This document shows, one piece after another, positions 1,087 through 19,502 of a stretch of DNA of 64,000 nt. A program made the position numbers and the translations under genes. The stretch comes from Perlabentimonas gracilis (GTDB taxonomy: Bacteria > Bacteroidota > Bacteroidia > Bacteroidales > Tenuifilaceae). The number at the start of each line of letters is the position of its first letter. Position 1 is the stretch's first letter. The DNA is taken from contig NZ_JAANIG010000010.1 in assembly GCF_011174675.1 (NCBI RefSeq), positions 1 to 64,000 on the forward strand, read 5' to 3'. The notes under the pieces were generated by a model, which had not been told where the DNA came from, searched no databases, and worked only from the letters and a program-made list of their open reading frames with translations.

Positions 1087-3267
1087 CTAGGCCTCAACTT
1101 TTACTGCGCTTGGCTGGAGCGTATTTGTGGCTATGCCATTTTCAATATTAGCATATTCCTTCTCGGTGTCGAAATGTTTCCTGTCCTTATACTCCTGCTG
1201 TTTGCCGTTGTTCCATTGCTTCACTGGGCGCATATAGCCTACAATTCTGCTGTAAACCTCGCAGCTGCTCTTGCATTTGGGACAGGTGTAATGCTCGCCG
1301 TGGATGTAGCCATGCTCTGGGCAAATGCTGAATGTGGGCGAAATGGTGATGTAGGGCAAGCGGAAGTTGTTGGTAATTTTTCGCACTAGGTTCTTGGCCG
1401 ATTCGGCGGGCATATTGGCATCGCCGGTGAAGAGGTGCATTACGGTTCCGCCAGTATATAGGGTTTGCAGGTCATCTTGTAGGGATAGCACCTCAAAGAT
1501 ATCATCGGAGAACCCAACTGGCAGGTGTGTGGAGTTGGTGTAGTAGGGTGCCGCTCCCTCCGTATATGCCTTATGGTTTGCGGTAATGATATGCGGATGC
1601 TGCATCGTGTCGATCCTTGCAAATCGGTAGGCCGTGCTCTCGGCGGGGGTGGCCTCAAGGTTGTAAATGTTTCCGGTTTCGTCTTGGAAGTCGGTAAGCA
1701 CATCGCGCATGAACAGCATAATACGCTGGGCAAAGGCCTTCCCATCGGGGTGGGCAATATCAACACCAAGGTGATTCAGGCAGCACTCGTTCATTCCATT
1801 TATGCCAATGGTGGAGAAGTGATTCTTCCAGTAGCACTTATGCCTCTGGTAAACGTGCCTCAGGTAGTACTTTGAATATGGGTATAGCCCATTGTCGGTG
1901 TAGTGCTCAATGGTTTTTCGTTTAATCTCAAGGCTGTCCTTTGCAAGCATCATCAGGCTTTTTAGCCGTTGTAGCAGGTTTTCCTCTGAGGTTGCCTCGT
2001 AGCCCAGCTTGGGCAGGTTTATGGTAACAACGCCCACCGAGCCGGTTAGTGGGTTGGAGGCGAAAAGTCCACCTCCTCTCTTGTTTAGCTCACGCTTGTC
2101 GAGCCTTAGGCGGCAACACATGCTGCGCACATCGTCGGGCTTCATGTCGGAGTTTACGAAGTTGGAGAAGTACGGTATGCCATACTTAGCAGTCATCTCC
2201 CAAATACCCTCATAGTCGGGGTTCTCCCAATCGAACTCAGGGGTGATATTGTAGGTGGGTATGGGGAACGAAAAGAGACTCCCATTGGCATCGCCCTTTA
2301 TCATCACCTCTGCAAATGCTCGGTTTAGTATGGTCACCTCGGGTTGGAATTCGGCATAGGTTGCCTCTTTCACCTCGCCTGCCCACACAATGGGCTCGTT
2401 TTTCAGGAATTCAGGCACAATCAAATCCATAGTGATGTTGGTGAATGGCGTTTGAAAGCCCACCCGTGTGGGGATGTTGATGTTGAAAAGGAACTCCTGC
2501 AGGCATTGCTTCACCTGCTCGTACGTGAGGCCATCGTAGCGGATGTAGGGGGCAAGAAATGTGTCGAAGTTGGAGAAGGCTTGTGCCCCAGCAGCCTCGC
2601 CTTGCATGGTGTAGAAAAAGTTAACGATCTGTCCTAAGGCGGTGCGGAATCGCCGAGCGGGCTTGCTCTCGGTTTTTCCCAGCACCCCCTTAAAGCCAGA
2701 TAGGAGCAAGTCTTTCAGATCCCATCCAACGCAGTAAACGCTCAGAAAGCCCAAGTCGTGGATATGTATGTATCCTCTCTTGTGGGCATTGGAAACGGAA
2801 TCGGGGTATAGCTTGTTGAGCCAATACTGCGATGTGATAACAGTAGAAATGTGCTGGTTCAGCCCTTGCAGCGAGTAGGCGGAGTTGGCGCTCTCTTTTA
2901 CCCGCCAGTCGTTCATTGAGAGGTAGTCGTCCATCGTTTCAATATTGCCGAGCATCTCCTTGGCGCTGCGCGATTGTTCCCGCTGCTTTCGGTAGAGTAG
3001 GTAGGCCTTCACCAGCTCAAAGTTCTCATTTTCAAAGAGGGTTTTCTCCACCATGTCTTGCACTTGCTCCACATTAGGATTCTCCTTAAAGGTTTCGTTG
3101 GCCAGCTTTTTAACTACAAGCTCGCACAGCTCACTTGCCCTCTTGCGGTTGGGTGTGCCAACGGCACGCATGGCCTTGAAGATAGCATGCTCAATTTTTT
3201 GTGGGTTGAAGCTAACCAACTCGCCGTTACGTTTGGTAATGTTTTGGAAACGAAGTTCACCATTCAT
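1087..3267 (-). CDS. nrdD: anaerobic (class III) ribonucleoside-triphosphate reductase
   Basis: This 726-residue enzyme reduces ribonucleoside triphosphates to deoxy forms without oxygen, using a protein glycyl radical. An ATP-cone regulatory domain fills about residues 5-95 (ITKRNGELVSF). The glycyl radical site is RIVGYMRP near the C-terminus, with the radical glycine at about 677. Just before it a cysteine cluster (about C649, C662, C665, C669) matches the structural zinc site. MCCRLRLDKREL in the middle holds the active-site cysteine region. Length is normal for the family. It is followed by nrdG two bases later and preceded by a cobalamin riboswitch, suggesting it is used when B12 is scarce. 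Start ATG at 3267 gives MNGELRFQN. Confidence 0.97.
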   Translation of the reverse strand: MNGELRFQNITKRNGELVSFNPQKIEHAIFKAMRAVGTPNRKRASELCELVVKKLANETFKENPNVEQVQDMVEKTLFENENFELVKAYLLYRKQREQSRSAKEMLGNIETMDDYLSMNDWRVKESANSAYSLQGLNQHISTVITSQYWLNKLYPDSVSNAHKRGYIHIHDLGFLSVYCVGWDLKDLLLSGFKGVLGKTESKPARRFRTALGQIVNFFYTMQGEAAGAQAFSNFDTFLAPYIRYDGLTYEQVKQCLQEFLFNINIPTRVGFQTPFTNITMDLIVPEFLKNEPIVWAGEVKEATYAEFQPEVTILNRAFAEVMIKGDANGSLFSFPIPTYNITPEFDWENPDYEGIWEMTAKYGIPYFSNFVNSDMKPDDVRSMCCRLRLDKRELNKRGGGLFASNPLTGSVGVVTINLPKLGYEATSEENLLQRLKSLMMLAKDSLEIKRKTIEHYTDNGLYPYSKYYLRHVYQRHKCYWKNHFSTIGINGMNECCLNHLGVDIAHPDGKAFAQRIMLFMRDVLTDFQDETGNIYNLEATPAESTAYRFARIDTMQHPHIITANHKAYTEGAAPYYTNSTHLPVGFSDDIFEVLSLQDDLQTLYTGGTVMHLFTGDANMPAESAKNLVRKITNNFRLPYITISPTFSICPEHGYIHGEHYTCPKCKSSCEVYSRIVGYMRPVKQWNNGKQQEYKDRKHFDTEKEYANIENGIATNTLQPSAVKVEA

Positions 3268-3383
3268 TTTGTGTAGATTTAAGAAGTTAATAAATGGTAA
3301 CTCGCGGGGGATTCAAAAGAAAACCTATGGGGGTAGATATTCTTCTCGCCTTTCGCCCGAAAGCTACGAATTGTTTGTGAATT

Positions 3384-3558
3384 GGCAGGTCTTCTGACTT
3401 ACCCCAGCCCTTGGCCACCTTCCCATCCGCCAGCTGGCGGTCAGTGGTATATATGCCAAGTGCATTTGCCTATTGTGTAGGCTTAGGGATTACAGCTACG
3501 GGGATAGTTCCTGATTCTCACAGGATTCCCTTTTAATCCGATTGGAGCCAATTGCAGT
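3384..3558 (-). promoter_or_regulatory. cobalamin (B12) riboswitch upstream of nrdD-nrdG
   Basis: Read on the minus strand, the region contains the cobalamin aptamer hallmarks in order: AAAAGGGAA, a GTGAGAATCAGGAAC segment, CCCCGTAGCTGTAA, a CCACTGACC / GATGGGAAGGTGGCC module, and the closing box AGTCAGAAGACCTGCC (3384-3399). It lies in the 460-base leader of nrdD; the aptamer ends about 117 bases before the nrdD ATG. A weak -7-like box (TACTTTCG, 3561-3568) sits just upstream. No clear terminator separates aptamer and gene, so control may be at translation. B12 binding is expected to switch nrdDG off. Confidence 0.93.
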
Positions 3559-3692
3559 AACGAAAGTATCCTATTTTAGTGATGTTGGTGATTGATGTTG
3601 GGGATGTTTATGAAAAAGTTTTCAACAAAAGAACATTTGCTAGATTTTACTAAGACAAGCAGTCTGATATTATCCAAAAAAAACACAATATT

Positions 3693-3707
3693 TGCAACAT
3701 TATTGCA
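3693..3707. promoter_or_regulatory. candidate operator of the Fur-family regulator
   Basis: TGCAA-CATTA-TTGCA is a perfect inverted repeat (5-base arms, 5-base spacer) located 21 bases before the ATG of the Fur-family gene at 3728. Fur-family proteins bind short A/T-rich inverted repeats and often repress themselves, so an autoregulatory site is plausible. The arms are short and the motif was not seen before another gene here, so this is inference. Confidence 0.4.
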
Positions 3708-3727
3708 TTTGAATTGTTGTTGCATAT

Positions 3728-4138
3728 ATGAAGCCACAAGAAGTTCTATCGAGTCATAACCTTAAGCGCACGAGTTGCCGCGAGGGTATCATTGATGCCA
3801 TTATTAATGCCGAAAAAGCCCTTTCTGAGGAGGAGATTAGAGAACAACTTGCCGGACACTACGATAGAACCACTTTCTACCGCTCCTTTAAAACGCTAGA
3901 GGAGAAGAAAATAATTCACAAAATAGTTGTGGATCATGCTATAGTTAAGTATGCACTTAACAACTCAATCACCAAAAAGGGAGAGCATGCGCACTTCTAT
4001 TGCAGTGTATGTAATACCGTGCAATGTTTAGATAGTGTTCCCATAAAACAGCCTTTACTGCCTGATGGCTATCAATTATCGGAGACAGAGGTAATAATTA
4101 AAGGCATTTGCAGCTTTTGTACTAAAAAGCAGAATTAG
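3728..4138 (+). CDS. Fur-family metal-responsive transcriptional repressor
   Basis: This 136-residue protein has the Fur fold: an N-terminal winged helix (RTTFYRSFKTLEE at 47-59 is the recognition-helix region, equivalent to TVYR in Fur) and a C-terminal metal/dimer domain. HAHFYCSVC gives His87, His89, Cys92 and Cys95, and CSFC gives Cys128 and Cys131, the usual four-cysteine structural zinc site. Which metal it senses cannot be read from sequence, but the following genes (His-rich small protein, TonB receptor, His-rich lipoproteins) suggest zinc or copper rather than ferric siderophores. It is about one base ahead of the next gene, so likely the first gene of the operon. Confidence 0.85.
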   Translation: MKPQEVLSSHNLKRTSCREGIIDAIINAEKALSEEEIREQLAGHYDRTTFYRSFKTLEEKKIIHKIVVDHAIVKYALNNSITKKGEHAHFYCSVCNTVQCLDSVPIKQPLLPDGYQLSETEVIIKGICSFCTKKQN

Positions 4139-4139
4139 G

Positions 4140-4502
4140 TTGAAAAAGTTTAGCCCACATATTGCCATTTTTCTTTTTGGGGTATTCATTTTCCCCTTAG
4201 CCTTTCAATTTGTGCATATTCAGCGGCACCATTCGCATTGGCATTCAATTTCGCATTGCTGCTCCCATGGCAAAAGTTGCAATGAGGCAAATCGCTACTT
4301 AACAACTTTATCGAATTACGATTCCGATAAGCATTGCCCTATCTGCGAATACCAATTTACCAAAACAGCAATTGCTGTTGATGCATATGAGTGTTCAAAC
4401 AAGCTTCACATTATTTGTTCTTACCAAGCATCTTTTCATCTTGGTATTAGTGAGTGCCCAATATTAAGTGAATCTCCACGAGCACCTCCCTTCATAACGT
4501 AA
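4140..4502 (+). CDS. His/Cys-rich small membrane or exported protein
   Basis: This 120-residue protein of unknown function starts with TTG one base after the stop of the Fur-family gene, implying tight coupling. It has a hydrophobic segment at about residues 7-25 (signal peptide or anchor) followed by a dense metal-ligand stretch, HIQRHHSHWH and HCCSHGKSC, and later CPICEYQF. Similar small 'HCPICEFxF' proteins occur beside TonB receptors in Bacteroidota. It could bind zinc or copper in the periplasm and pass it on, but this is inference. No enzymatic motif is seen. Confidence 0.7.
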   Translation: MKKFSPHIAIFLFGVFIFPLAFQFVHIQRHHSHWHSISHCCSHGKSCNEANRYLTTLSNYDSDKHCPICEYQFTKTAIAVDAYECSNKLHIICSYQASFHLGISECPILSESPRAPPFIT

Positions 4503-4554
4503 GCATTTTTCTCTTCAATTCTTTTAAACATCATAAATTTCATTCTACACTCAA

Positions 4555-6951
4555 ATGAGCAAGTTGCTTTTATTGCTTGCTTTTTTGATCGCACCTTACT
4601 TTCTAGCGTTTTCTCAAGGAGAGTATTCGCTTACAGGTAGGGTAGTCGACGATCAAAACAAGCCATTGCCAGGGTCATCTGTTGTTTTGTATCCCATTAA
4701 GAAAGGTACTACAACAGATTCCAAGGGATATTTTACCATCGCCAGTGTCAAGGGCGGAAATTATGCCCTAGAGATTTCGTTTATGGGATATTACCCGATT
4801 ATCGATTCTGTATCAATTACCTCAAATTTAGTATACAACGCCAGGCTAAAAGCAATGCCAATAACATTGCAGGAGGTTATTGTGGTTGATCATTATGCAG
4901 AAAGGGTAAAAAGGGAGGAATCTCTTAATGTTGATATTGTTAATAGCCAGTTTATTAAGCAGTACCAATCGGGTAGTTTAATGAAAACGCTGGAGCGTAT
5001 ACCTGGTGTTAGCACAATTGATATTGGCGCAGGCCAGTCGAAACCTATTATTCGTGGATTAAGTTTTAACCGAGTAGTTGTAGTTGACAATGGGATAAAG
5101 CACGAGGGGCAGCAATGGGGTGCCGACCATGGTTTGGAAATCGACCAGTACGCTGTGAGCAGCGTTGAGGTGGTAAAGGGCCCTGCATCGCTTATGTATG
5201 GATCGGACGCAATTGGTGGGGCTATCGTTTTAAAATCGAATGGTTTACCTCAGAAGAATTCCCTCGCCGGAACGGTTGACCTATTGGGCAAAACCAACAA
5301 CAATCTTTGGGGAACGTCGGTTAATGTGTTGGGCAGGAAGAATGGCTTTTGGGGTGGTTTCCGTGCAACGGTAATGGATTATGCCGATTACAAGGTGCCA
5401 ACCGATAGCATCGATATTTACTCCTACAGAGCACCGCTTTATAAAAACCGACTGAGAAATACGGCGGGCAAGGAGAAGAATTTTCACCTTAATATAGGAT
5501 TAATTCGTTCGCATTTTACAAGCCGACTTTACCTTAGCAACCTGAGTTCCCAAAGCGGTTTCTTTGCCAATGCGCACGGCTTGGAGCCTCGGAATGTGGA
5601 TACCGTTTTGCACGATAAATCGAACAGGGATATTCTTTACCCTCGCCAAAAAGTTAATCACATTAAGGCAATTAGCAAAAGTCAATGGCAAGGTGAAACC
5701 CTCATGCTTGATATGGATTTGGGAGTTCAGCGAAATTACAGGGAGGAATGGAGCCAGTATGTAAATCACGGCTATATGCCACCCAACTTTCCCGATAACC
5801 AAACTTTCCCTGCCGATTTGGAGCGAGGGTTCGAAAAATACATCTACTCGGTAAACCTTAAAGCTACCCATTCGCAAGGCGAGAGAAGGGATTTATCACT
5901 TGGATTAAACTCGGAATATCAAGACAATAGGATTGATGGACGTGGTTTTATAATCCCTGCATTTACGCAGGCTGTATTGGGTGGATACATCTTTGCGAAG
6001 CAAAATATTTCGGCGAGTAGCATTGTAAACCTGGGCATCAGGTACGATTTTGGGCAAATTAAAACTCAACCATATTCCGATTGGTTTCAAAGTCCTAACG
6101 ATGATGAAACAGAATGGCTCTATGTGCAACGAGCCACCAGGTTAGATCGGTCTTTTTCTGCTCTTTCGTGGTCGGTTGGGTACAACTTTAACCGAGAAAT
6201 TTTTCTTTTGAAGGCGAATATCGGCAAGAGTTTTCGTATGCCCATTGCCAAGGAACTGGCTGCTAACGGGGTAAACTACCACCAGTTTAGCTACGAGGTG
6301 GGTGATGTTAATCTATCGCCCGAAGTATCCTATCAGCTCGATATGGGCGCAGAGCTTAACACTAACAGGTTTGCCATCAGCGTTAATCCCTTTGTAAACT
6401 ACTTTGCAAACTATATCTACCTAAACCCTACGCACCTACACGATAGGCTGTATGGCAATGGGAATCAAATTTTCATCTACACCGAAGCCGAAGTGTTTAG
6501 GTTTGGAGGCGAAATGCACGCTCATCTATACCTTGCCAAAAAGTTAAAACTTGGTATAATAGGCGAGTACATTTACTCCGAGCAGCTATCGGGTTCAAAG
6601 AAGGGTTTTTCCTTGCCATTCTCCCCTGCACCATCTGGTCTAATAAGCCTTAAATACCAAAGTTTGAACTTAGGGTTTGTGCAAAATGCTTACCTGTATG
6701 CAGACCTGAGAATTACTGCTATTCAAAACCAAATTGTTCCACCCGAAGAGGTTACCGATGGTTATCAGGAGCTAAACCTTGGTCTCGGAGGAGAAGTGAG
6801 AAGGGTGAGATTATCACTGCAAATTAACAACGTATTTAACAGCAAGCATTTTAACCATTCGAGCTACTACAGGCTTATTAATGTTCCCGAGCCCGGAAGG
6901 AATGTTGCTGTGAATATATCTGTTCCGTTCAATATCGATATCACTAATTAA
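4555..6951 (+). CDS. TonB-dependent outer-membrane receptor, probable metal uptake
   Basis: This 798-residue protein begins with a signal peptide (residues 1-20), then a carboxypeptidase-regulatory-like beta domain (about 25-105, LTGRVVDDQNKPLPG), a TonB plug (about 120-230, with LERIPGVS, IIRGLSFNRV and VEVVKGPASLMYGSDAIGG) and a C-terminal 22-strand barrel. The last residues (FNIDITN) do not end in phenylalanine. The plug sequence (DNGIKHEGQQWGADHG) and neighbours resemble receptors near Fur/Zur-type regulators that are thought to import zinc. There is no SusD partner, so a polysaccharide role is unlikely. The substrate is not proven; iron or copper complexes are alternatives. Confidence 0.9.
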   Translation: MSKLLLLLAFLIAPYFLAFSQGEYSLTGRVVDDQNKPLPGSSVVLYPIKKGTTTDSKGYFTIASVKGGNYALEISFMGYYPIIDSVSITSNLVYNARLKAMPITLQEVIVVDHYAERVKREESLNVDIVNSQFIKQYQSGSLMKTLERIPGVSTIDIGAGQSKPIIRGLSFNRVVVVDNGIKHEGQQWGADHGLEIDQYAVSSVEVVKGPASLMYGSDAIGGAIVLKSNGLPQKNSLAGTVDLLGKTNNNLWGTSVNVLGRKNGFWGGFRATVMDYADYKVPTDSIDIYSYRAPLYKNRLRNTAGKEKNFHLNIGLIRSHFTSRLYLSNLSSQSGFFANAHGLEPRNVDTVLHDKSNRDILYPRQKVNHIKAISKSQWQGETLMLDMDLGVQRNYREEWSQYVNHGYMPPNFPDNQTFPADLERGFEKYIYSVNLKATHSQGERRDLSLGLNSEYQDNRIDGRGFIIPAFTQAVLGGYIFAKQNISASSIVNLGIRYDFGQIKTQPYSDWFQSPNDDETEWLYVQRATRLDRSFSALSWSVGYNFNREIFLLKANIGKSFRMPIAKELAANGVNYHQFSYEVGDVNLSPEVSYQLDMGAELNTNRFAISVNPFVNYFANYIYLNPTHLHDRLYGNGNQIFIYTEAEVFRFGGEMHAHLYLAKKLKLGIIGEYIYSEQLSGSKKGFSLPFSPAPSGLISLKYQSLNLGFVQNAYLYADLRITAIQNQIVPPEEVTDGYQELNLGLGGEVRRVRLSLQINNVFNSKHFNHSSYYRLINVPEPGRNVAVNISVPFNIDITN

Positions 6952-6977
6952 ATTGATAAACCTAATTTTTTTATATT

Positions 6978-7826
6978 ATGAGAACCAAGCATTTTTTAAC
7001 AGCAATTATGCTTTTATTAGGTGTCACCTTTATGTCTTGCGAAAAGGACGAAGTGGCGAAACCCGAAATCCTAAACTTTGAGCTGGGCTATGAGAATAGC
7101 GGCATTGGCTATTTAGGCAGCGACCTGCACATTGAGGCAGAAATAATTGCCGAAGGCAAAATTGACAGAGTGATTATTGAAATACACCACGAGGGCGAGC
7201 ACGGCAAGAAAACTTTATCGATTGTACTCGATGAACACGAGTGGGAGGTTGATACGACCTACACCAAATTCTATGGTCTTAAGAATACAAATTTCCACGA
7301 GCACATCGATATTCCCCTTTGGGCAGAGGCTGGCGAATACCACTTCCATATGAAGGTGGTTGATCTTGAGGGCAATCAGACTGAAAAGGAAGCTGAGCTG
7401 GAAATAATGGCTCCCGAAGACAGTGTCCCCCCAACCATTACCATAAACAGTGCACCTAGAGAAAACCAAAGTTATACCAATGGTGAAACAATATCCATTG
7501 CGGGATCTGTGGCCGACGATAAAGCGTTGGGCGGTATATACATTGGGTTGGCTAGGATTAGCCAAAATCTTACTGATGCCGAGGTGAATGCAACCAATAC
7601 AATCACCCTGCTTCATACACACGATTTTGACAACCCCACATCGTATAGCTTCAATGCTAGCATTGTGGTTGGTGCTGCACAGGATAACAACAATACCCCC
7701 AAGCCCATTACGGGTGATATTGCCTGGCAAACGGCAGACTACTATATTGTTGTGAAGTGTAAGGACGCCTTTGGAGGAAACTGGACCTTCTCGCAACACT
7801 ATCCTATTACTATTAGTTTAGAGTAA
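6978..7826 (+). CDS. DUF4625-type lipoprotein, His-rich
   Basis: This 282-residue lipoprotein has a lipobox ending at Cys21 (TFMSC). The body has two parts: a DUF4625-like domain (about 35-145) containing IEIHHEGEHG and FHEHIDIP and YHFHMKVVD, and a second Ig-like domain (about 150-282) starting DSVPPTITINS with DFDNPTSYSF. The clustered histidines suggest metal binding on the cell surface or in the periplasm. It follows the TonB receptor by 26 bases and is probably in the same operon, so it may capture the metal for it. Function is inferred from context only. Confidence 0.8.
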   Translation: MRTKHFLTAIMLLLGVTFMSCEKDEVAKPEILNFELGYENSGIGYLGSDLHIEAEIIAEGKIDRVIIEIHHEGEHGKKTLSIVLDEHEWEVDTTYTKFYGLKNTNFHEHIDIPLWAEAGEYHFHMKVVDLEGNQTEKEAELEIMAPEDSVPPTITINSAPRENQSYTNGETISIAGSVADDKALGGIYIGLARISQNLTDAEVNATNTITLLHTHDFDNPTSYSFNASIVVGAAQDNNNTPKPITGDIAWQTADYYIVVKCKDAFGGNWTFSQHYPITISLE

Positions 7827-7832
7827 CGTATT

Positions 7833-7871
7833 GTGGCTGTCTGATCTCCGGCTTGTGGGTTGGGCAGCCAC
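7833..7871. repeat. inverted repeat between the two lipoprotein genes
   Basis: GTGGCTG (7833-7839) and CAGCCAC (7865-7871) are perfect complements around a 25-base loop in the gap between the two lipoprotein genes. No T-tract follows on the plus strand, so it is more likely a processing or stability hairpin than a terminator. Confidence 0.35.
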
Positions 7872-7889
7872 TACATAAAATTTTAAAAA

Positions 7890-8381
7890 ATGATGCGAAA
7901 AACCATTTTAATACTTACGGCAATATCCTTAATGGCAGTCTCTATTTCCTGTAACAGAGAGGAGGTAGACAAGGAGAAACCTCAGATTGATCTAACCATT
8001 TTGGGCGCATTCCCCATAAACTGCGACACGCTTTACTTTGGGGAAACATTTACGTTTAAAATGCTATTCACCGACAATATTGAGTTGGGTTCTTATAGCA
8101 TCGATATTCACCATAATTTCGATCACCACTCGCATAGTACAGAGGTTTCCGAGTGCCAACTCGACCCTGTGAAAGCACCCATTAACCCATTCGTTTTTAT
8201 TAACGACTACTCAATTCCTGATGGATTACAGGAGTATGAGACAAGCCTTGAAATAACCCTACCCGATGGTGATGCCAAGGGCCCATACGATGAGGGCGAT
8301 TACCACTTTTTTATAAGTCTAACCGATAAATCAGGCTGGTCGACACAGAAGGGGTTGAGCATTAAAATAATAAGGGAGTAG
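7890..8381 (+). CDS. second DUF4625-type lipoprotein, His-rich
   Basis: This 163-residue lipoprotein (lipobox ending SISC, Cys21) is a single-domain relative of the preceding gene. It shares the pattern DIHHNFDHHSHS, then a beta-rich end with GDYHFFISLTDKSGW matching the DUF4625 closing strand YHFHMKVVDLEGN. Six histidines lie in a 12-residue stretch, which fits a zinc or copper site. It is the last gene of the cluster. Two unequal DUF4625 proteins after one receptor suggest duplication with later divergence. Confidence 0.78.
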   Translation: MMRKTILILTAISLMAVSISCNREEVDKEKPQIDLTILGAFPINCDTLYFGETFTFKMLFTDNIELGSYSIDIHHNFDHHSHSTEVSECQLDPVKAPINPFVFINDYSIPDGLQEYETSLEITLPDGDAKGPYDEGDYHFFISLTDKSGWSTQKGLSIKIIRE

Positions 8382-9053: not shown

Positions 9054-9905
9054 CTACAAACCTATCCTAAAGTACGATGAGTAAAAGATAATCCGTGCCG
9101 CAAATTCTGCTATCACAAAAAATACAAACGCAAGCAGGTAAAGGCGAATGCCGGTATCGGAATCGCGTGGATTCGGGAAAACCCGTCGGATAAGCATACC
9201 TAGTCCAAGCAGCCAAGCCCATGATAGGGCATTCCAAATGGGATGATACATCCTTCCTGCAAAAGCTATGTTTTCGTTGGTTGTTGTGTCCCAGCCAACC
9301 AGTCCAGAAATAAATTTTACTGCAAGGATAGTTATTATAACAAACACGAAAACTCTTTCTACATTCTTATCTAAATTATCCTTGTGGCTATTATAGAACA
9401 AGACCGATGCAAACGAAGAGCCTAGTAGTATAGTGTTGACGTAAAAGGCTATCAGTGTACCTGGGGTGTTCCAAACTGGTATGGTCTCAATCATGTATAG
9501 CTTGGCCATGGTGAGCACCATAGTTAAGCCCAACAAACTTGAAATGGCTAGGAGAGGGATAAGAAAACTCCTTTTTCCTTTGCAGAATAGCCAGTACAAT
9601 GTGGTTGCAAAAACCGATGCGGCGTAGGCCGAAACCATCAATATCTCGCGGCTAAGCCATGACGATTTCAGGTTGGTAAGCGCAAATACCGATGATAATG
9701 GCGCCGATAGATGCAGGAACGAGATGATTAGCGCAATGCCTATGGCTCCAGTGGCGACAAGTAGTCCAACTTTTAAAAAGGATGCTTGTGCATTATCATC
9801 ACGCTTAGGTGTAATAATTGTGTATATCAGCAAAGCTGTTGTTAGCCCCGCCGAGAATTGCCCAATTAGCGTAAAAAATAGTAGCGACCATTCTGAGCTA
9901 TGCAT
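9054..9905 (-). CDS. dmsC: DmsC-type membrane anchor of molybdoenzyme
   Basis: This 283-residue protein has about eight hydrophobic segments and matches the DmsC anchor of DMSO reductase-type complexes, which oxidises menaquinol and passes electrons to DmsB. It starts MHSSEWSLLFFTLIGQ, typical of the family (short N-terminus then a first helix containing Q and G). Its ATG overlaps the dmsB stop by 8 bases, so the three genes form one operon in the order A, B, C. The final acceptor cannot be told from the anchor alone. Confidence 0.88.
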   Translation of the reverse strand: MHSSEWSLLFFTLIGQFSAGLTTALLIYTIITPKRDDNAQASFLKVGLLVATGAIGIALIISFLHLSAPLSSVFALTNLKSSWLSREILMVSAYAASVFATTLYWLFCKGKRSFLIPLLAISSLLGLTMVLTMAKLYMIETIPVWNTPGTLIAFYVNTILLGSSFASVLFYNSHKDNLDKNVERVFVFVIITILAVKFISGLVGWDTTTNENIAFAGRMYHPIWNALSWAWLLGLGMLIRRVFPNPRDSDTGIRLYLLAFVFFVIAEFAARIIFYSSYFRIGL

Positions 9906-10521
9906 CTCGTACCTCCTCCTTATTTATGATTTTCCAGTTCATCTCTTTTTTTGCGGCTTCTTTTGCTTTTATCACCAGCGATGGCTTGGTAATATGTGCG
10001 CTTGGGAGCGGGTATATATTTTCCCAATCGTCAAACTCGCTTCTTAATTCACTTAGCTCGCCAACTTTTAGCACCCGCATAGGGCACGCAGCAACGCATG
10101 AAGGCTGTTTGCCTTCGGCTAGGTAGTCGATACATAGGTCGCATTTGGTCATCTTGCCAGTTTGCTTATTCAGATGGAGTGCTCCGTATGGGCAAGCCCA
10201 CTGGCAATACTTACAGCCCATACATCGGTCGGCATCAATAAGCACAATGCCTTCCTCATTCTTATATATCGCCCCGTTGGGGCAATTCTTCATGCAGATT
10301 GGATCCTCGCAATGGTTGCACGACATGGATATGTTGTACGATTCGATGCCCGACTCCCAGTTGCTATCACCCTTTGCTTCCCAATGTCCACCAGCCACCT
10401 CGTAAACATTGCGCCAGCGCAATCCAACAGCATGATCCTGCTTATCCTTACAGGCTATTTGGCAGGTTTTGCAGCCCGAGCACTGCGACGAGTCGAAATA
10501 GAAAGCCCACTGTTTTGCCAT
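9898..10521 (-). CDS. dmsB: DmsB-type four-cluster ferredoxin subunit
   Basis: This 207-residue electron-transfer subunit carries four [4Fe-4S] clusters. Cys motifs are clear: CSGCKTCQIAC at 14-24, CNHCEDPICMKNC, CMGCKYCQWAC and CDLC...CVAAC. It links the membrane quinol oxidase DmsC with the catalytic DmsA. It has no signal peptide, as expected, because it is exported together with the Tat-signal-bearing DmsA. The order dmsA-dmsB-dmsC and the 45-base gap after dmsA support an operon. Confidence 0.93.
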   Translation of the reverse strand: MAKQWAFYFDSSQCSGCKTCQIACKDKQDHAVGLRWRNVYEVAGGHWEAKGDSNWESGIESYNISMSCNHCEDPICMKNCPNGAIYKNEEGIVLIDADRCMGCKYCQWACPYGALHLNKQTGKMTKCDLCIDYLAEGKQPSCVAACPMRVLKVGELSELRSEFDDWENIYPLPSAHITKPSLVIKAKEAAKKEMNWKIINKEEVRDA

Positions 10522-10566
10522 GGTATTTTGTTGTAGTAACTATTGTTTTATAAAAAATCCCCCCTT

Positions 10567-12996
10567 CTAAATCTTCTCAACCTCCACCATAATGGTGTGC
10601 TGCGCATTGCCGTAGGCAAGGGGTGTCCAGCGGTGCGAGGTTAGCACGTTCACGTTCCCTCTTCGGTCAATCCCGTTCTTATCGGGTTTCCACCACGCCC
10701 CCTGCGGAATATCAATTACTCCGGGCATAATCTTGGGGGTGATGCGGCACGGCATGGCTATTTTGCCCCTGTCGTTATAAATCAATATCTCATCGCCATC
10801 GTTTATGCTACGTTTTTTTGCATCAATTGGGTTGATAAATACTCGCTGAGGGAAAGCCTCCTCAAGCCAGTCAACCCCATCGTGGGTAGAGTGCACACGT
10901 GCCATATAGTGATGCCCCACGGCTTGCAGCGGGAACCTTTTGGCCTCCTCGCCAAATGGGCTTTCCCACTCCTGTATGTACTTGGGTACGGCAGGTATCG
11001 TGTTGGGCTTGCCCATATCGAAAAGAGTTTTTGAGAAGAGTTCGATTTTTCCACTTGGCGTTCGCAACGGATTCTTCTCTGGATTTGCCCTAAACTCCCT
11101 GAATGCTATGGCTGGCTTATCCACCGCCTTGGTGTATCCACCCCAGTTGTCCTTTTCCATTTTATCCAGACTGGGGATATCTGGGAAACGGGTGTTTCTG
11201 TATCGCTCCACGGCCCACTCAATCCATTCCCGCTCGCTGCGGTTCTGGGTAAACTCTTCCCTTACCCCAAAGCGTTCTGCCAGTTCGGCGCATATTTGGT
11301 AATCGCTTTTGGTCTCGTGGGGCGGTTTGGCCAGCTGGGGCATTATAATTACCTCATCGCCGTACTTCCAACCATCTTGTAAACCCCAGGTTTCCATTTG
11401 CGTGCAAACGGGCAGCACCAAATCGGCATATTTGGCCGAGGGGGTCATGAACTGATCCTGCACCGCAATGAACTCCACTAGGCTTTCATCTTTCAAGATT
11501 TTGGCCGAGCGGTTGGTGTCGGCATGCTGATTTATAAGGATATTTGAGGCAACGCACCAGATAAGCTTTAGGTTATTATCCAGCTTCTCAACACCACGAA
11601 CACCATCCTCCGAATCCATCTCCTTGCCACGCAGAATGGCCTCAGTCCAAAGGAAAACGGGTATGGTTGCCTTTACCGGATTTCTGCCCGTTGGAAAAAC
11701 GTTCCAGAATGGGCCACCGTCATCGGCCTGCAGGGCTATGCCGCCTGCCCAGCCGCCGGGAATACCCACATTGCCAGTTATGGCAGGAAGGCAGCAACCC
11801 GCAATAACCACCTGCTCGCCGTATGCCCTGCGCTGGATACCATATCCTTGGTAAAGCACCGAGGGTTTGCTGGTGGCGTACTCGCGGGCAATGCGCCTTA
11901 TTGTTTGGGCGGAAACGCTACAAATCTTTTCGGCCCACTCGGGCGTTTTGGGAATTCCATCGTGTGTTCCTAGGATGTAATCGGAGTAGCTCTCCTCGTC
12001 TTCGCAACCCTTGGGCATCTGGGTTTTGTCGAAACCTACGCAGCAGCGTTTTATGAAATCTTTATCGTGAAGATTTTCGGTGATAATGGTATAGGCCATG
12101 GCACTCATCATGGCCACATCGGTGCCGGGGCGAATGGGAATCCACTCATCGGCCAGCGCCACGGCGCTCATGCTCATGCGCGGGTCGATACACACAACCC
12201 TAGCACCCCTTTCGCGCGCCTTTTTGATGAAGAACTCGCTGTTGGTGCCATCGCGCATCTCGGCGGGGTTCCATCCCCACATAATTATGAACTTGCTATT
12301 AACCCAATCTTGTCGCTGGTTACCAGTTACCGATGTGCCATACACATATGGCGTGGCCTTCGATATGCAAGCCCAGCTGTAGCTGTTGTAAAAGCCTAAC
12401 GATCCACCTAGTAGGTTGATGAGGCGGGCTGCGGTTTGCCTGCCGTTTATCTGATTGTAGCTGCCTGTTCCGTATGGGACAAGTATTGCGGAGTTGCCGT
12501 ATTTTTCCTTAACCCGCTTAATCTCCGATGCCAGCAAGTCAAGTGCTTCATCCCATGATATTTTCTCGAATTCACCCGAACCACGCTCGCCAACCCTTTT
12601 TAGTGGGTACTTTAATCGGTCGGGATGATACTGCCTACGCCGGTATGAGCGACCACGAATACAGGCTCTTAGCTGCGGATCCTCAAGCGTATCGCCGGGG
12701 CGATCGTCGGTTTCAATGCGGGTCACAGTACCATCCTTAACGTGGAATTTTAGTATGCATCGGCCACCGCAGTTGTGCCCAGGGCATCCTGCCCTTATTA
12801 TCATGGTATCGCCTTTGGTCTCAATAATCTCGGCGGAACCATCGGATAGGTTTCCCACGCAGCCCAGTAGCCCTCCCGACAGAAAAACGCCACCTCCCAG
12901 CAGAATGCTTAGCTTAATGAAATCGCGCCTATCCATTCCCGTTGAAACTTCATCAGGTTTATTCGGCTTAGATACTTTTTTCTTCTGTTTGCCCAT
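10567..12996 (-). CDS. dmsA: DmsA-type molybdopterin oxidoreductase (Tat-exported)
   Basis: This 809-residue catalytic subunit belongs to the DMSO reductase family. It has a twin-arginine signal (RRDFIK at 23-28), a [4Fe-4S] site C71-x4-C76-x3-C80-x31-C112 (GHNCGGRC, LRACIRGRSYRR), then molybdopterin and dinucleotide-binding domains ending in the C-terminal beta barrel (NDRGKIAMPC, HRWTPLAYGNAQH). A lipobox-like LLGC ends at Cys46 after the Tat hydrophobic stretch, so lipidation is possible. Substrate (DMSO, TMAO, sulfur or selenium oxyanion) is not decided by sequence. No dmsD-type chaperone is seen next to it. Confidence 0.9.
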   Translation of the reverse strand: MGKQKKKVSKPNKPDEVSTGMDRRDFIKLSILLGGGVFLSGGLLGCVGNLSDGSAEIIETKGDTMIIRAGCPGHNCGGRCILKFHVKDGTVTRIETDDRPGDTLEDPQLRACIRGRSYRRRQYHPDRLKYPLKRVGERGSGEFEKISWDEALDLLASEIKRVKEKYGNSAILVPYGTGSYNQINGRQTAARLINLLGGSLGFYNSYSWACISKATPYVYGTSVTGNQRQDWVNSKFIIMWGWNPAEMRDGTNSEFFIKKARERGARVVCIDPRMSMSAVALADEWIPIRPGTDVAMMSAMAYTIITENLHDKDFIKRCCVGFDKTQMPKGCEDEESYSDYILGTHDGIPKTPEWAEKICSVSAQTIRRIAREYATSKPSVLYQGYGIQRRAYGEQVVIAGCCLPAITGNVGIPGGWAGGIALQADDGGPFWNVFPTGRNPVKATIPVFLWTEAILRGKEMDSEDGVRGVEKLDNNLKLIWCVASNILINQHADTNRSAKILKDESLVEFIAVQDQFMTPSAKYADLVLPVCTQMETWGLQDGWKYGDEVIIMPQLAKPPHETKSDYQICAELAERFGVREEFTQNRSEREWIEWAVERYRNTRFPDIPSLDKMEKDNWGGYTKAVDKPAIAFREFRANPEKNPLRTPSGKIELFSKTLFDMGKPNTIPAVPKYIQEWESPFGEEAKRFPLQAVGHHYMARVHSTHDGVDWLEEAFPQRVFINPIDAKKRSINDGDEILIYNDRGKIAMPCRITPKIMPGVIDIPQGAWWKPDKNGIDRRGNVNVLTSHRWTPLAYGNAQHTIMVEVEKI

Positions 12997-19136: not shown

Positions 19137-19502
19137 TTAGTCAAAGTTTGTTCTTTTGGCATCGGCCCATAAGTCTTCGAGCTTGTAGAACTGGCGCCAT
19201 TCGGTTTGGAAAATGTGAACAACAATATCTACATAATCGAGTACCACCCAAATGCTGTTGTCGTATCCGCCTTTTTGCCATGCTTTTTCATTCAATTCCT
19301 TTTGCACCCTCTCCTCAATGTTTTCTGCAATGGCAGCAACCTGCGTGGTGGAGTCGGCATGGCAAATGATGAAGTGCTGGCATATGGCATTGGGTAAGCT
19401 GCCAAGTTCAAGGCTAATTAGCTCGTTTCCTTTCTTCTCGTTTATTGCATCAATAATGCAGCTGTGTAGCTTGTCGGTATTCTGTTTGTTTCTCTTGGCC
19501 AT
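19137..19502 (-). CDS. rsfS: ribosome silencing factor RsfS
   Basis: This 121-residue protein binds L14 on the large subunit and blocks subunit joining when nutrients are low. The RsfS pattern is clear: ISLELGSLPNAIC-like strand, then FIICHADSTTQVAAIA and the Y-D-N-S-IWVVLDYVDIVVHIF strand and FYKLEDLWADA end. It is the first gene of the unit; a strong TAnnTTTG promoter lies upstream (19535-19565). birA is divergent on the other side. Confidence 0.95.
   Translation of the reverse strand: MAKRNKQNTDKLHSCIIDAINEKKGNELISLELGSLPNAICQHFIICHADSTTQVAAIAENIEERVQKELNEKAWQKGGYDNSIWVVLDYVDIVVHIFQTEWRQFYKLEDLWADAKRTNFD

Follow-up and report, generated by a model that had tools for sequence, protein, structure and literature searches.

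A recurrent Bacteroidota operon joining a Zur-like regulator, a TonB-dependent receptor and DUF4625 lipoproteins is a probable zinc-starvation system

What is the role of a gene cluster that joins a Fur-family regulator to a TonB-dependent receptor (TBDR) and lipoproteins of DUF4625, a Pfam family of unknown function? The cluster lies in a 64,000-nucleotide stretch of Perlabentimonas gracilis DNA (the window). The original prediction described five plus-strand genes separated by small gaps and read them as a zinc-type uptake locus. The genes for the regulator, a small His/Cys protein, the TBDR and the DUF4625 lipoproteins D1 and D2 are co-directional and close-packed, with gaps of 1, 52, 26 and 63 bp, the small-protein gene starting 1 bp past the fur stop codon (Table 1). 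Base 3693, with which the predicted locus began, is the first base of a palindromic operator. A cobalamin riboswitch is located just upstream on the opposite strand and reads away from the locus. Scans for sigma-70 promoters and terminators gave yields about equal to those from shuffled sequence.

Table 1. Features of the Perlabentimonas gracilis locus (window positions)
Feature	Position	Strand	Remarks
Palindromic operator TGCAACATTATTGCA (candidate Zur box)	3693..3707		35 bp 5′ of fur start codon
Degenerate second operator half-site TGAATTGTTGTTGCA	3710..3724		17 bp downstream of first; matrix score
Candidate -7 promoter box AATATTTG	3687..3694	+	Overlaps operator's left end
Fur-family regulator, Zur-like branch, 136 aa	3728..4138	+	PF01475, E = 7.9e-11; tree
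Small His/Cys protein, membrane-anchored or exported, 120 aa	4140..4502	+	TTG start, CxxC, C-terminal RAPP
ZnuD-like TonB-dependent receptor, 798 aa	4555..6951	+	PF07715, PF00593, PF13715
DUF4625 lipoprotein D1, 282 aa, two DUF4625 domains	6978..7826	+	PF15418, E = 4.8e-30
DUF4625 lipoprotein D2, 163 aa, one domain	7890..8381	+	PF15418, E = 1.3e-37

The palindrome TGCAACATTATTGCA is the sole zero-mismatch match to TGCAAYAWTRTTGCA in the whole genome, and at 22.9 of 26.5 it has the window's highest matrix score; the half-site TGAATTGTTGTTGCA is third-best with a score of 10.5. Of 62 relatives, 49 have near copies of the palindrome 5′ of the first gene, where shuffling expects 0.22, and the upstream regions of the other 13 contain no site at two or fewer mismatches. 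Within the same loci, 66 sites fall in 19,220 upstream bases versus 42 in 1,073,349 bases elsewhere. In the upstream alignment, many relatives feature a half-site resembling TGAATTGTTGTTGCA at the same position, and many carry TAYATTTG at the position of the -7 box. The Bacteroidota -7 promoter consensus is TAnnTTTG, and AATATTTG agrees with five of its six fixed bases.

The palindrome is most likely a zinc operator, because elsewhere in the phylum it stands 5′ of fur-znuACB, ZigA-type, ZIP, AztD-homologue and merC genes. In locus L191 it precedes fur-znuA-znuC-znuB (PF01297, E = 5.9e-52), for which the best NCBIfam matches are AztC, AztA and AztB, each below its cut-off. Further copies lie 5′ of an AztD homologue (L180), of a ZIP transporter gene (L272, E = 7.5e-35) and of three genes for COG0523 GTPases, one of them ZigA-type (L283, 539 of 600 bits for ZigA) and two assigned by their similarity to it (L279, L284). 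The palindrome is also located 5′ of merC in L181, L235, L245, L259 and L260, and 5′ of merC-folE in L122. In the P. gracilis genome itself there was no other clear operator target among the matches listed (two or fewer mismatches), so the zinc link comes from relatives. There was no operator site near the ZIP gene of this genome or in its ZnuA stretch, which covered the 200 bases before znuA. A one-mismatch site on contig C33 is unconvincing as an operator; judged by eye, it sits between genes of a CusA-like efflux operon. The same search returned a site at window position 19446, and among the places read no additional operator was convincing.

Pfam assigns the regulator a single significant domain, FUR (42.6 bits against a cut-off of 23.1). 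Among the NCBIfam models, Fur and PerR outscore Zur (PRK11639.1, 18.5 of 167 bits), and all Fur-family models remain below their cut-offs. In a tree with only two named references and long branches, the regulator joins E. coli Zur with a support of 0.971, apart from E. coli Fur and from two further Fur-family proteins of the same genome, which score better than the locus regulator. The four cysteines of the Cys4 structural zinc site (two CxxC) are kept in 38/38 regulators of DUF4625 operons, including that of the window. We take the glutamate in the sensory site of E. coli Zur to be Glu111. In E. coli numbering, all 38 regulators possess His77 and a cysteine at the Glu111 position, and Cys88 occurs in 0/38. 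The E. coli sensory site consists of the hinge His77, Cys88, one histidine and one glutamate, and mutation of Cys88 abolishes the zinc response (PMC6103462). The sensor cysteine of the locus regulator seems to have moved relative to E. coli Zur, with the cysteine at the glutamate position presumed to substitute for Cys88 across the operon regulators. Hence, since Cys88 is missing and a cysteine replaces Glu111, the protein is termed Zur-like and not a classical Zur.

The receptor contains a TBDR plug (E = 1.3e-19) and barrel (E = 8e-21), preceded by an N-terminal CarboxypepD_reg domain. Its best match among solved structures in a sequence search is ZnuD (4rdr, E = 3.2e-15). The Asp-His pair of ZnuD, high-affinity zinc ligands (PMC4557270), aligns with D191-H192 of the receptor; the pair is taken as Asp99-His100, with a numbering offset of 14 inferred from chain length. 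D191 is conserved in 62/67 and H192 in 66/67 sequences. H576 is two residues off the column taken as ZnuD His499, and Glu340 falls outside the alignment. The score against the NCBIfam ZnuD model (118.5 of 950 bits) is far under the cut-off and slightly below that against TonB-hemin (127.1 of 316.85 bits). A second receptor (L089), likewise with an operator at the start, has no plug histidine.

Both lipoproteins belong to DUF4625, with 105 bits for D1 and 129.4 bits for D2 at a cut-off of 27. Two divergent DUF4625 proteins had been predicted and both were found, but D1 is itself a tandem: Pfam and the genome search found a weak second domain, which brings the locus total to three. The histidine runs pointed out beforehand all exist but differ in weight. 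In the run HHNFDHHSHS of D2, H74, H80 and H82 are invariant (67/67) and D78 is kept in 66/67, giving a loop H74-x-N-F-D-H-H-x-H82; H139 is invariant in the same alignment of 67. The run HHEGEHG of D1 is present, with H70 conserved in 30/31 and E72 in 31/31 sequences, but residues 76–86 are modelled with a pLDDT below 50. The predicted models, with pLDDT values of 89.2 (D1) and 94.4 (D2), are Ig-like β-sandwiches, for which fold searches gave generic matches at low TM-scores. A sequence search revealed no DUF4625 relative among solved structures. D1 and D2 carry the surface-export signals CEKDEV and CNREEV, respectively, and that of D1 agrees with the optimal signal C-X-K-(D/E)2-X (PMC5080379). 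Viral contigs yielded no match to DUF4625 (D2), and a literature search on DUF4625 found no paper.

The small His/Cys protein has no Pfam match at E ≤ 1, including DUF2946 (PF11162). H26, both cysteines of the CxxC motif and R-x-PP are invariant in 13/13 sequences; the run HHSHWH, stressed in the original prediction, is present but not conserved. Some relatives of the protein resemble DUF2946, a family that occurs in copper loci, and a similar small protein 5′ of another receptor (L253) matches it with 27.2 bits (cut-off 23.7).

The locus represents an operon that recurs in Bacteroidota and consists of a Fur-family regulator, a small His/Cys protein, a TBDR and DUF4625 lipoproteins. Among the 59 named relatives whose upstream sequence spans 4.5 kb or more, a same-strand TBDR lies within 5.5 kb of DUF4625 in 58 and a second DUF4625 gene is present in 56; the named locus L091 has no TBDR. 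Cultured carriers include Flavobacterium tyrosinilyticum KCTC 42726, Mariniphaga anaerophila DSM 26910, Maribellus luteus and Chitinophaga japonensis DSM 13484. In an independent phylum sample, a TBDR is adjacent to DUF4625 in 16 of the 20 stretches read and missing from 4. The anticipated association with a Fur-type regulator was also found: of the 57 relatives that combine a full receptor with 1500 bp or more of upstream sequence, 32 have a Fur-family gene directly upstream on the same strand, 3 have one elsewhere in the stretch and 22 have none in the stretch. An AztD homologue adjoins the receptor in 8/80 named loci, all from Flavobacterium (PDB AztD, E = 2.3e-21; NCBIfam AztD, 81 of 400 bits).

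The shared operator, the Flavobacterium AztD homologue and the ZnuD ligands in the receptor support the zinc-type uptake originally proposed. The locus is probably a zinc-starvation operon under Zur-type control, providing ZnuD-like surface zinc uptake with DUF4625 proteins as capture lipoproteins. From the gene order, the conserved operator shared with zinc genes of relatives, the ZnuD-type residues, the export signals and the histidine loop, we infer the following course, with zinc as both co-repressor and cargo. When zinc is plentiful, the Zur-like protein would occupy the palindrome, overlapping the likely -7 element, and through this overlap would silence its own gene and the four genes downstream. 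When zinc is scarce, the repressor would be released and both lipoproteins would be exported to the cell surface. Their Ig-like domains, with the conserved His/Asp loop, would capture zinc or a zinc complex and hand zinc over to the ZnuD-like receptor, with which they may form a complex. The receptor would accept zinc via the Asp-His site of its plug loop and move it into the periplasm, where the small His/Cys protein would probably be a periplasmic-side helper. Import would be completed by ZnuABC or a ZIP transporter, whose genes lie in other parts of the genome. More tentatively, and with rather less confidence than the operon assignment, the DUF4625 lipoproteins can be proposed as surface zinc-catching partners of the receptor in a SusD/HmuY-like manner, possibly stripping zinc from chelators or zinc proteins, and the regulator as an undescribed Bacteroidota Zur lineage with its sensor thiolate shifted from Cys88 to the Glu111 position and its own box TGCAACATTGTTGCA.

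A haem or iron uptake operon, with an iron-responsive Fur, a receptor for haem and haemophore-like lipoproteins, appears very unlikely. TonB-hemin does give the receptor its highest NCBIfam score, and haem might be bound by the conserved plug His192 and His576; haem receptors likewise use plug and loop-6 histidines (PMC4557270). Among solved structures, however, the receptor matches ZnuD best, and other genomes have the operator in front of znuACB, ZigA, ZIP and AztD-type genes as well. The FUR-only domain content of the regulator and the lead of the Fur and PerR models over Zur would suit an iron sensor; however, the genome has two better-scoring Fur-family genes, and in the tree the regulator sits beside E. 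coli Zur, separate from both.

It is also improbable that the cargo is a different metal (cobalt, nickel, copper or manganese) or a complex of metal and chelator, taken up under a regulator that is of zinc type or has been re-tuned through the change in its sensor site. Such a role would fit the sensor site unlike that of E. coli Zur, the DUF2946-like relatives of the small protein and the P-type ATPase genes found behind related regulators with operator-like sites, and His/Asp/Cys sites can bind several metals. The neighbouring and co-regulated genes of relatives are, however, mostly of zinc families, and the names of AztD and ZigA refer to zinc; the cobalamin riboswitch just upstream would likewise fit another metal, but its strand reads away from the locus. 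The lipoproteins may instead be outer-membrane structural partners, or buffers against excess metal, and not capture proteins for the receptor. This is unlikely, since DUF4625 adjoins the receptor in nearly all named loci behind the same operator and the D2 histidine loop is invariant, although the Ig-like fold has no structural relative that is specific and two stand-alone DUF4625 genes (L066, L067) have no receptor in their stretches.

The receptor resembles ZnuD, the zinc TBDR of Neisseria, in its plug Asp-His pair and its position behind a zinc-type operator. It differs in remaining under the NCBIfam ZnuD cut-off, in its CarboxypepD_reg domain and in being accompanied by the DUF4625 lipoproteins and the small His/Cys protein, neither of which we know from ZnuD loci. 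Likeness to AztABCD, the Paracoccus zinc importer with the chaperone AztD, lies in the AztD homologue of Flavobacterium loci and in the AztABC-like transporter that one relative (L191) has behind this operator, whereas the locus of the window has neither AztD nor an ABC transporter, and DUF4625 and AztD are separate families in the searches run. The regulator shares with Zur the FUR domain, two CxxC motifs, the tree position and, in relatives, the kinds of gene that follow the operator; it differs in the sensor cysteine and in the palindrome TGCAACATTGTTGCA. SusC-SusD and HmuR-HmuY are Bacteroidota receptor–lipoprotein pairs, and the TBDR is likewise paired with surface-signalled lipoproteins, although the DUF4625 models are Ig-like sandwiches and there was no SusD or HmuY entry among the matches listed.

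A literature search on AztD with Bacteroidetes found no paper, and for Zur with Bacteroidetes, Bacteroides, Bacteroidota or Flavobacterium, the titles and abstract starts among the matches listed describe no such system; the searched text of a 2018 Zur review has zero words beginning with "bacteroid" or "flavobacter". The present reading offers a testable function for DUF4625, and it gives Bacteroidota a candidate zinc operator together with a set of genes. Microbial communities are shaped by competition for zinc, and a phylum-wide surface zinc system would help to forecast the winners under scarcity. The apparently moved cysteine would be a natural experiment in metal-sensor rewiring.

Recurring Flavobacterium sites TGCATTAATATTGCA/TGCATCAATATTGCA were rejected as operators: seven of the eight examined (L183, L184, L186–L190) lie inside one conserved coding sequence, which we take to be glycyl-tRNA synthetase. 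Many asymmetric matches of the phylum scan are intragenic and probably due to chance. With gene labels derived in part from the sites themselves, which makes the contrast partly circular, a labelled gene adjoins 12/18 symmetric and 10/38 asymmetric sites, compared with 5.1% of positions drawn at random from these loci.

The cluster of five plus-strand genes was confirmed at 3728-8381, with intergenic gaps of 1, 52, 26 and 63 bp. Pfam matched FUR in the first product, plug, barrel and CarboxypepD_reg domains in the TonB-dependent receptor (TBDR) and DUF4625 (PF15418) in both lipoproteins, D1 and D2; the small second protein had no Pfam match. The original prediction of two DUF4625 proteins stands for the proteins, but the domains number three, D1 having two according to Pfam and the genome search. 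Judged from sequence, the parts of the locus are consistent with an operon for zinc starvation that captures the metal at the cell surface.

Features of the cluster, its surroundings and operator-bearing stretches of other genomes (L-numbers)
Feature	Position	Strand	Remarks
Fur-family gene	3728-4138	plus	
Small His/Cys protein gene	4140-4502	plus	
TBDR gene	4555-6951	plus	
D1 gene	6978-7826	plus	
D2 gene	7890-8381	plus	
Operator, 15-bp palindrome	3693-3707		35 bp ahead of fur start
Weaker operator half-site	3710-3724		17 bp downstream of operator
Operator-like site TGCATCAATAATGCA	19446-19460		second-best in window, matrix score 17.9
Cobalamin riboswitch (RF00174)	3367-3567	minus	91.3 bits
Putative anaerobic ribonucleotide reductase genes	1087-3267 and 437-1084	minus	named by reading the sequence, without family search
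Putative DMSO-reductase-type molybdopterin oxidoreductase, including iron-sulfur and membrane-anchor subunits	9054-12996	minus	named by eye
Two operators 38 bp apart, Balneolaceae genome	L065:3972-4024 (= L131:15337-15389)		
Second lipoprotein family	L232:3388-3951	minus	
Second lipoprotein family	L233:4011-4625	plus	
Second lipoprotein family	L236:3416-4021	minus	

DUF4625 was found in 22 of 395 genomes sampled phylum-wide, 18 of them exceeding the curated cut-off. The D2 profile matched 20 of 99 near relatives and, in the other sampled genomes, 0/4 of the same genus and 1/22 of the same family; the distribution among relatives is therefore patchy. A GTDB contig scan yielded at least 590 stretches, at least 539 of them coding for D2 relatives; the named loci are the best 80 of these stretches and hence biased to close relatives. 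Among the 59 named loci with at least 4.5 kb ahead of D2, a same-strand TBDR lies within 5.5 kb in 58 (the exception is L091) and a second DUF4625 gene is present in 56; a looser count, admitting shorter stretches already showing the gene, gave 73/74 and 75/78, respectively. The predicted association with a Fur-type regulator is supported. In 57 loci the receptor is complete and 1500 bp or more of upstream sequence is available; a Fur-family gene lies directly upstream on the same strand in 32 of them and elsewhere in the stretch in 3. The counterpart of the small second protein, recognised by an RxPP/CxxC pattern rule, occurs in 39 of the 57. In the less biased phylum sample, read in 20 stretches with four weak-match genomes left out, TBDR and DUF4625 occur together in 16 and the pairing is absent from L066, L067, L069 and L070. 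Flavobacterium shows variant orders, among them small protein-D1-D2-TBDR-AztD homologue, as well as D2-TBDR-D1 with a gene of the AztD-homologue kind behind it.

The operator was sought between 250 bp upstream and 60 bp downstream of the point where the first gene is called to start, a region available in 62 of the 80 named loci (18 yielded none). With at most two mismatches it was found in 49 of the 62, against 0.22 expected from base-shuffled regions. Its density was 66 sites per 19,220 upstream bases versus 42 per 1,073,349 bases in the rest of these loci; of the 42, several sit before further FUR, MerC or TBDR genes. Column counts over 50 sites, the window's own among them, gave a consensus of approximately TAYATTTGCAWCATTGTTGCATTTRAA. 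The Bacteroidota −7 promoter box is TAnnTTTG; the TAYATTTG part of the operator-region consensus matches it and extends into the operator, an arrangement that suggests promoter occlusion as the mode of repression. Paired full sites at a spacing of 38 bp occur in other loci.

A tree was built from 63 Fur-family proteins. E. coli Zur and the 59 that come from DUF4625 loci or from operator sites formed one group in it (support 0.971), leaving outside E. coli Fur and the two other Fur-family proteins of the window genome. The operon regulators retain both CxxC motifs, and hinge His77 is present in 38/38. Unlike classical Zur, the window regulator lacks the sensor Cys88, which is absent from all 38 and, as a Zur review states, is required for the zinc response in E. 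coli (PMC6103462). The set of 38 omits four regulators that have DUF4625 as well as folE/merC in their vicinity; L051 and L131 have Cys88, whereas L120 and L122 do not; in the comparison set including these four, Cys88 occurs in 16 of 21. All 38 carry Cys in a column where the E. coli Zur sequence has Glu, which we take to be position 111, as do 20/21 of the other set. Since Cys88 is absent while this Cys is present, the regulator is named Zur-like; its mode of action is probably that of Zur, with the thiolate ligand in a different position.

The exact degenerate operator pattern was present in 15 of 25 DUF4625-bearing genomes (control pattern, 0). It precedes fur-znuA-znuC-znuB in L191 (ZnuA, E 5.9e-52; ABC-3 permease, E 8e-70), where the best NCBIfam names of the transporter genes are AztC, AztA and AztB, each below cut-off. 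L180 has two sites where the gene for an AztD homologue begins (66 of 400 bits), and others are ahead of merC (L181) and of a thioredoxin-reductase-like gene with merC (L182); further sites of this search fall within genes or next to unrelated genes. Across the 395 genomes, the exact pattern occurred in 53 and the control in 9, as counted from the listing. Of 67 places listed, 56 were read, the other 11 being already covered or in the window. Behind these sites are three COG0523 GTPases (L283, ZigA, 539 of 600 bits; L279 and L284, recognised by their similarity to L283), one ZIP transporter (E 7.5e-35) divergent from a FUR gene, and genes for FUR, MerC, TBDR, thioredoxin-reductase-like proteins and P-type ATPases. 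No labelled gene adjoins 34 of the 56 sites. Cyclobacterium L122 has the operator at both its DUF4625 operon and a merC-folE cluster. Zur-regulated genes listed in the review include znuABC, TonB receptors, COG0523, zupT and folE2 (PMC6103462), and we take the palindrome to be a zinc box of Zur-like regulators in Bacteroidota.

Operator-like sites also precede heavy-metal P-type ATPase genes with an adjoining Zur-like gene (L251, L274, L275, L277, L278). A zinc box would not be expected to control an exporter; the ATPases may therefore be importers or differently regulated. The paired operators of the Balneolaceae genome lie ahead of a SaoD/DsrE-family gene (NCBIfam, 189.7 bits). The second lipoprotein family behind the operator (~190-200 aa, motif NEEELITT...DGDGG; no Pfam or NCBIfam match for the two members tested) has a Fur-family gene nearby in two of three cases and a receptor in one, and is possibly another partner lipoprotein.

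The best solved-structure relative of the TBDR is ZnuD (E 3.2e-15), followed by PhuR (9.5e-10). Residues D191-H192 align with an Asp-His pair of ZnuD, which we infer from a 14-residue chain-length offset to be Asp99-His100; the zinc ligands described for ZnuD are Asp99, His100, Glu340 and His499 (PMC4557270). H192 is kept in 66/67 receptors of DUF4625 loci. Of 11 other receptors compared, five have an operator that lies at, or close to, the start of the receptor gene or its gene group; H192 occurs in four of these (L237, L241, L253 and L280, not the second receptor of L089) versus 0/6 without an operator. The alignment has nine near-invariant histidines, and H576 is two residues from the column taken as His499. 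The TBDR scores below the NCBIfam ZnuD cut-off, and haem receptors are described as likewise using plug and loop histidines (PMC4557270); the receptor by itself would therefore not decide.

The D1 N-terminus, C-E-K-D-E-V, conforms to C-X-K-(D/E)2-X, reported as the optimal signal for surface export in Capnocytophaga (PMC5080379); in that of D2, C-N-R-E-E-V, two acidic residues come after a positive one. Among proteins with a lipobox by our own rule, at least two acidic residues at C+2 to C+5 were counted in 58/71 D1 and 44/74 D2 sequences versus 47/163 other lipobox-like proteins of the same loci. Searches of solved structures and folds returned no specific relative of either lipoprotein; from generic matches to the predicted models (pLDDT 89.2 for D1 and 94.4 for D2, the latter of high confidence and mainly beta) we read an Ig-like fold. 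The D2 model carries a loop H74-x-N-F-D78-H79-H80-x-H82. H74, H80, H82 and H139 are invariant in 67/67 aligned sequences, and C45 and C89 are kept in 66; the set comprises the window's D2 and those from 66 of the 80 loci, retained by filters for length and similarity. Many D1 relatives are short and single-domain; in the two-domain length class (31 sequences, the window and 30 of 76), H51, E72, H107 and H109 are invariant.

Zinc starvation would switch on the operon, the DUF4625 lipoproteins would capture the metal at the surface and pass it to the ZnuD-like receptor, and ZnuABC or ZIP would import it across the inner membrane; both are encoded elsewhere in the window genome, the ABC subunits beside znuA being recognised by eye. 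Zur-controlled TonB zinc uptake is already known as a general kind. New, as far as the searched open-licence literature shows, are the proposed DUF4625 role, the Bacteroidota operator together with the genes behind it, and the change in the sensor site, parts of which may be known in RegPrecise or subscription literature. The searched text of the Zur review (PMC6103462) contains no word beginning 'bacteroid'; nor does that of a COG0523 paper (PMC2770081), which names Cytophaga once.

On the minus strand, the cobalamin riboswitch directly precedes the putative anaerobic ribonucleotide reductase genes, with transcription away from the zinc locus. The putative DMSO-reductase-type genes come after the locus, on the opposite strand.
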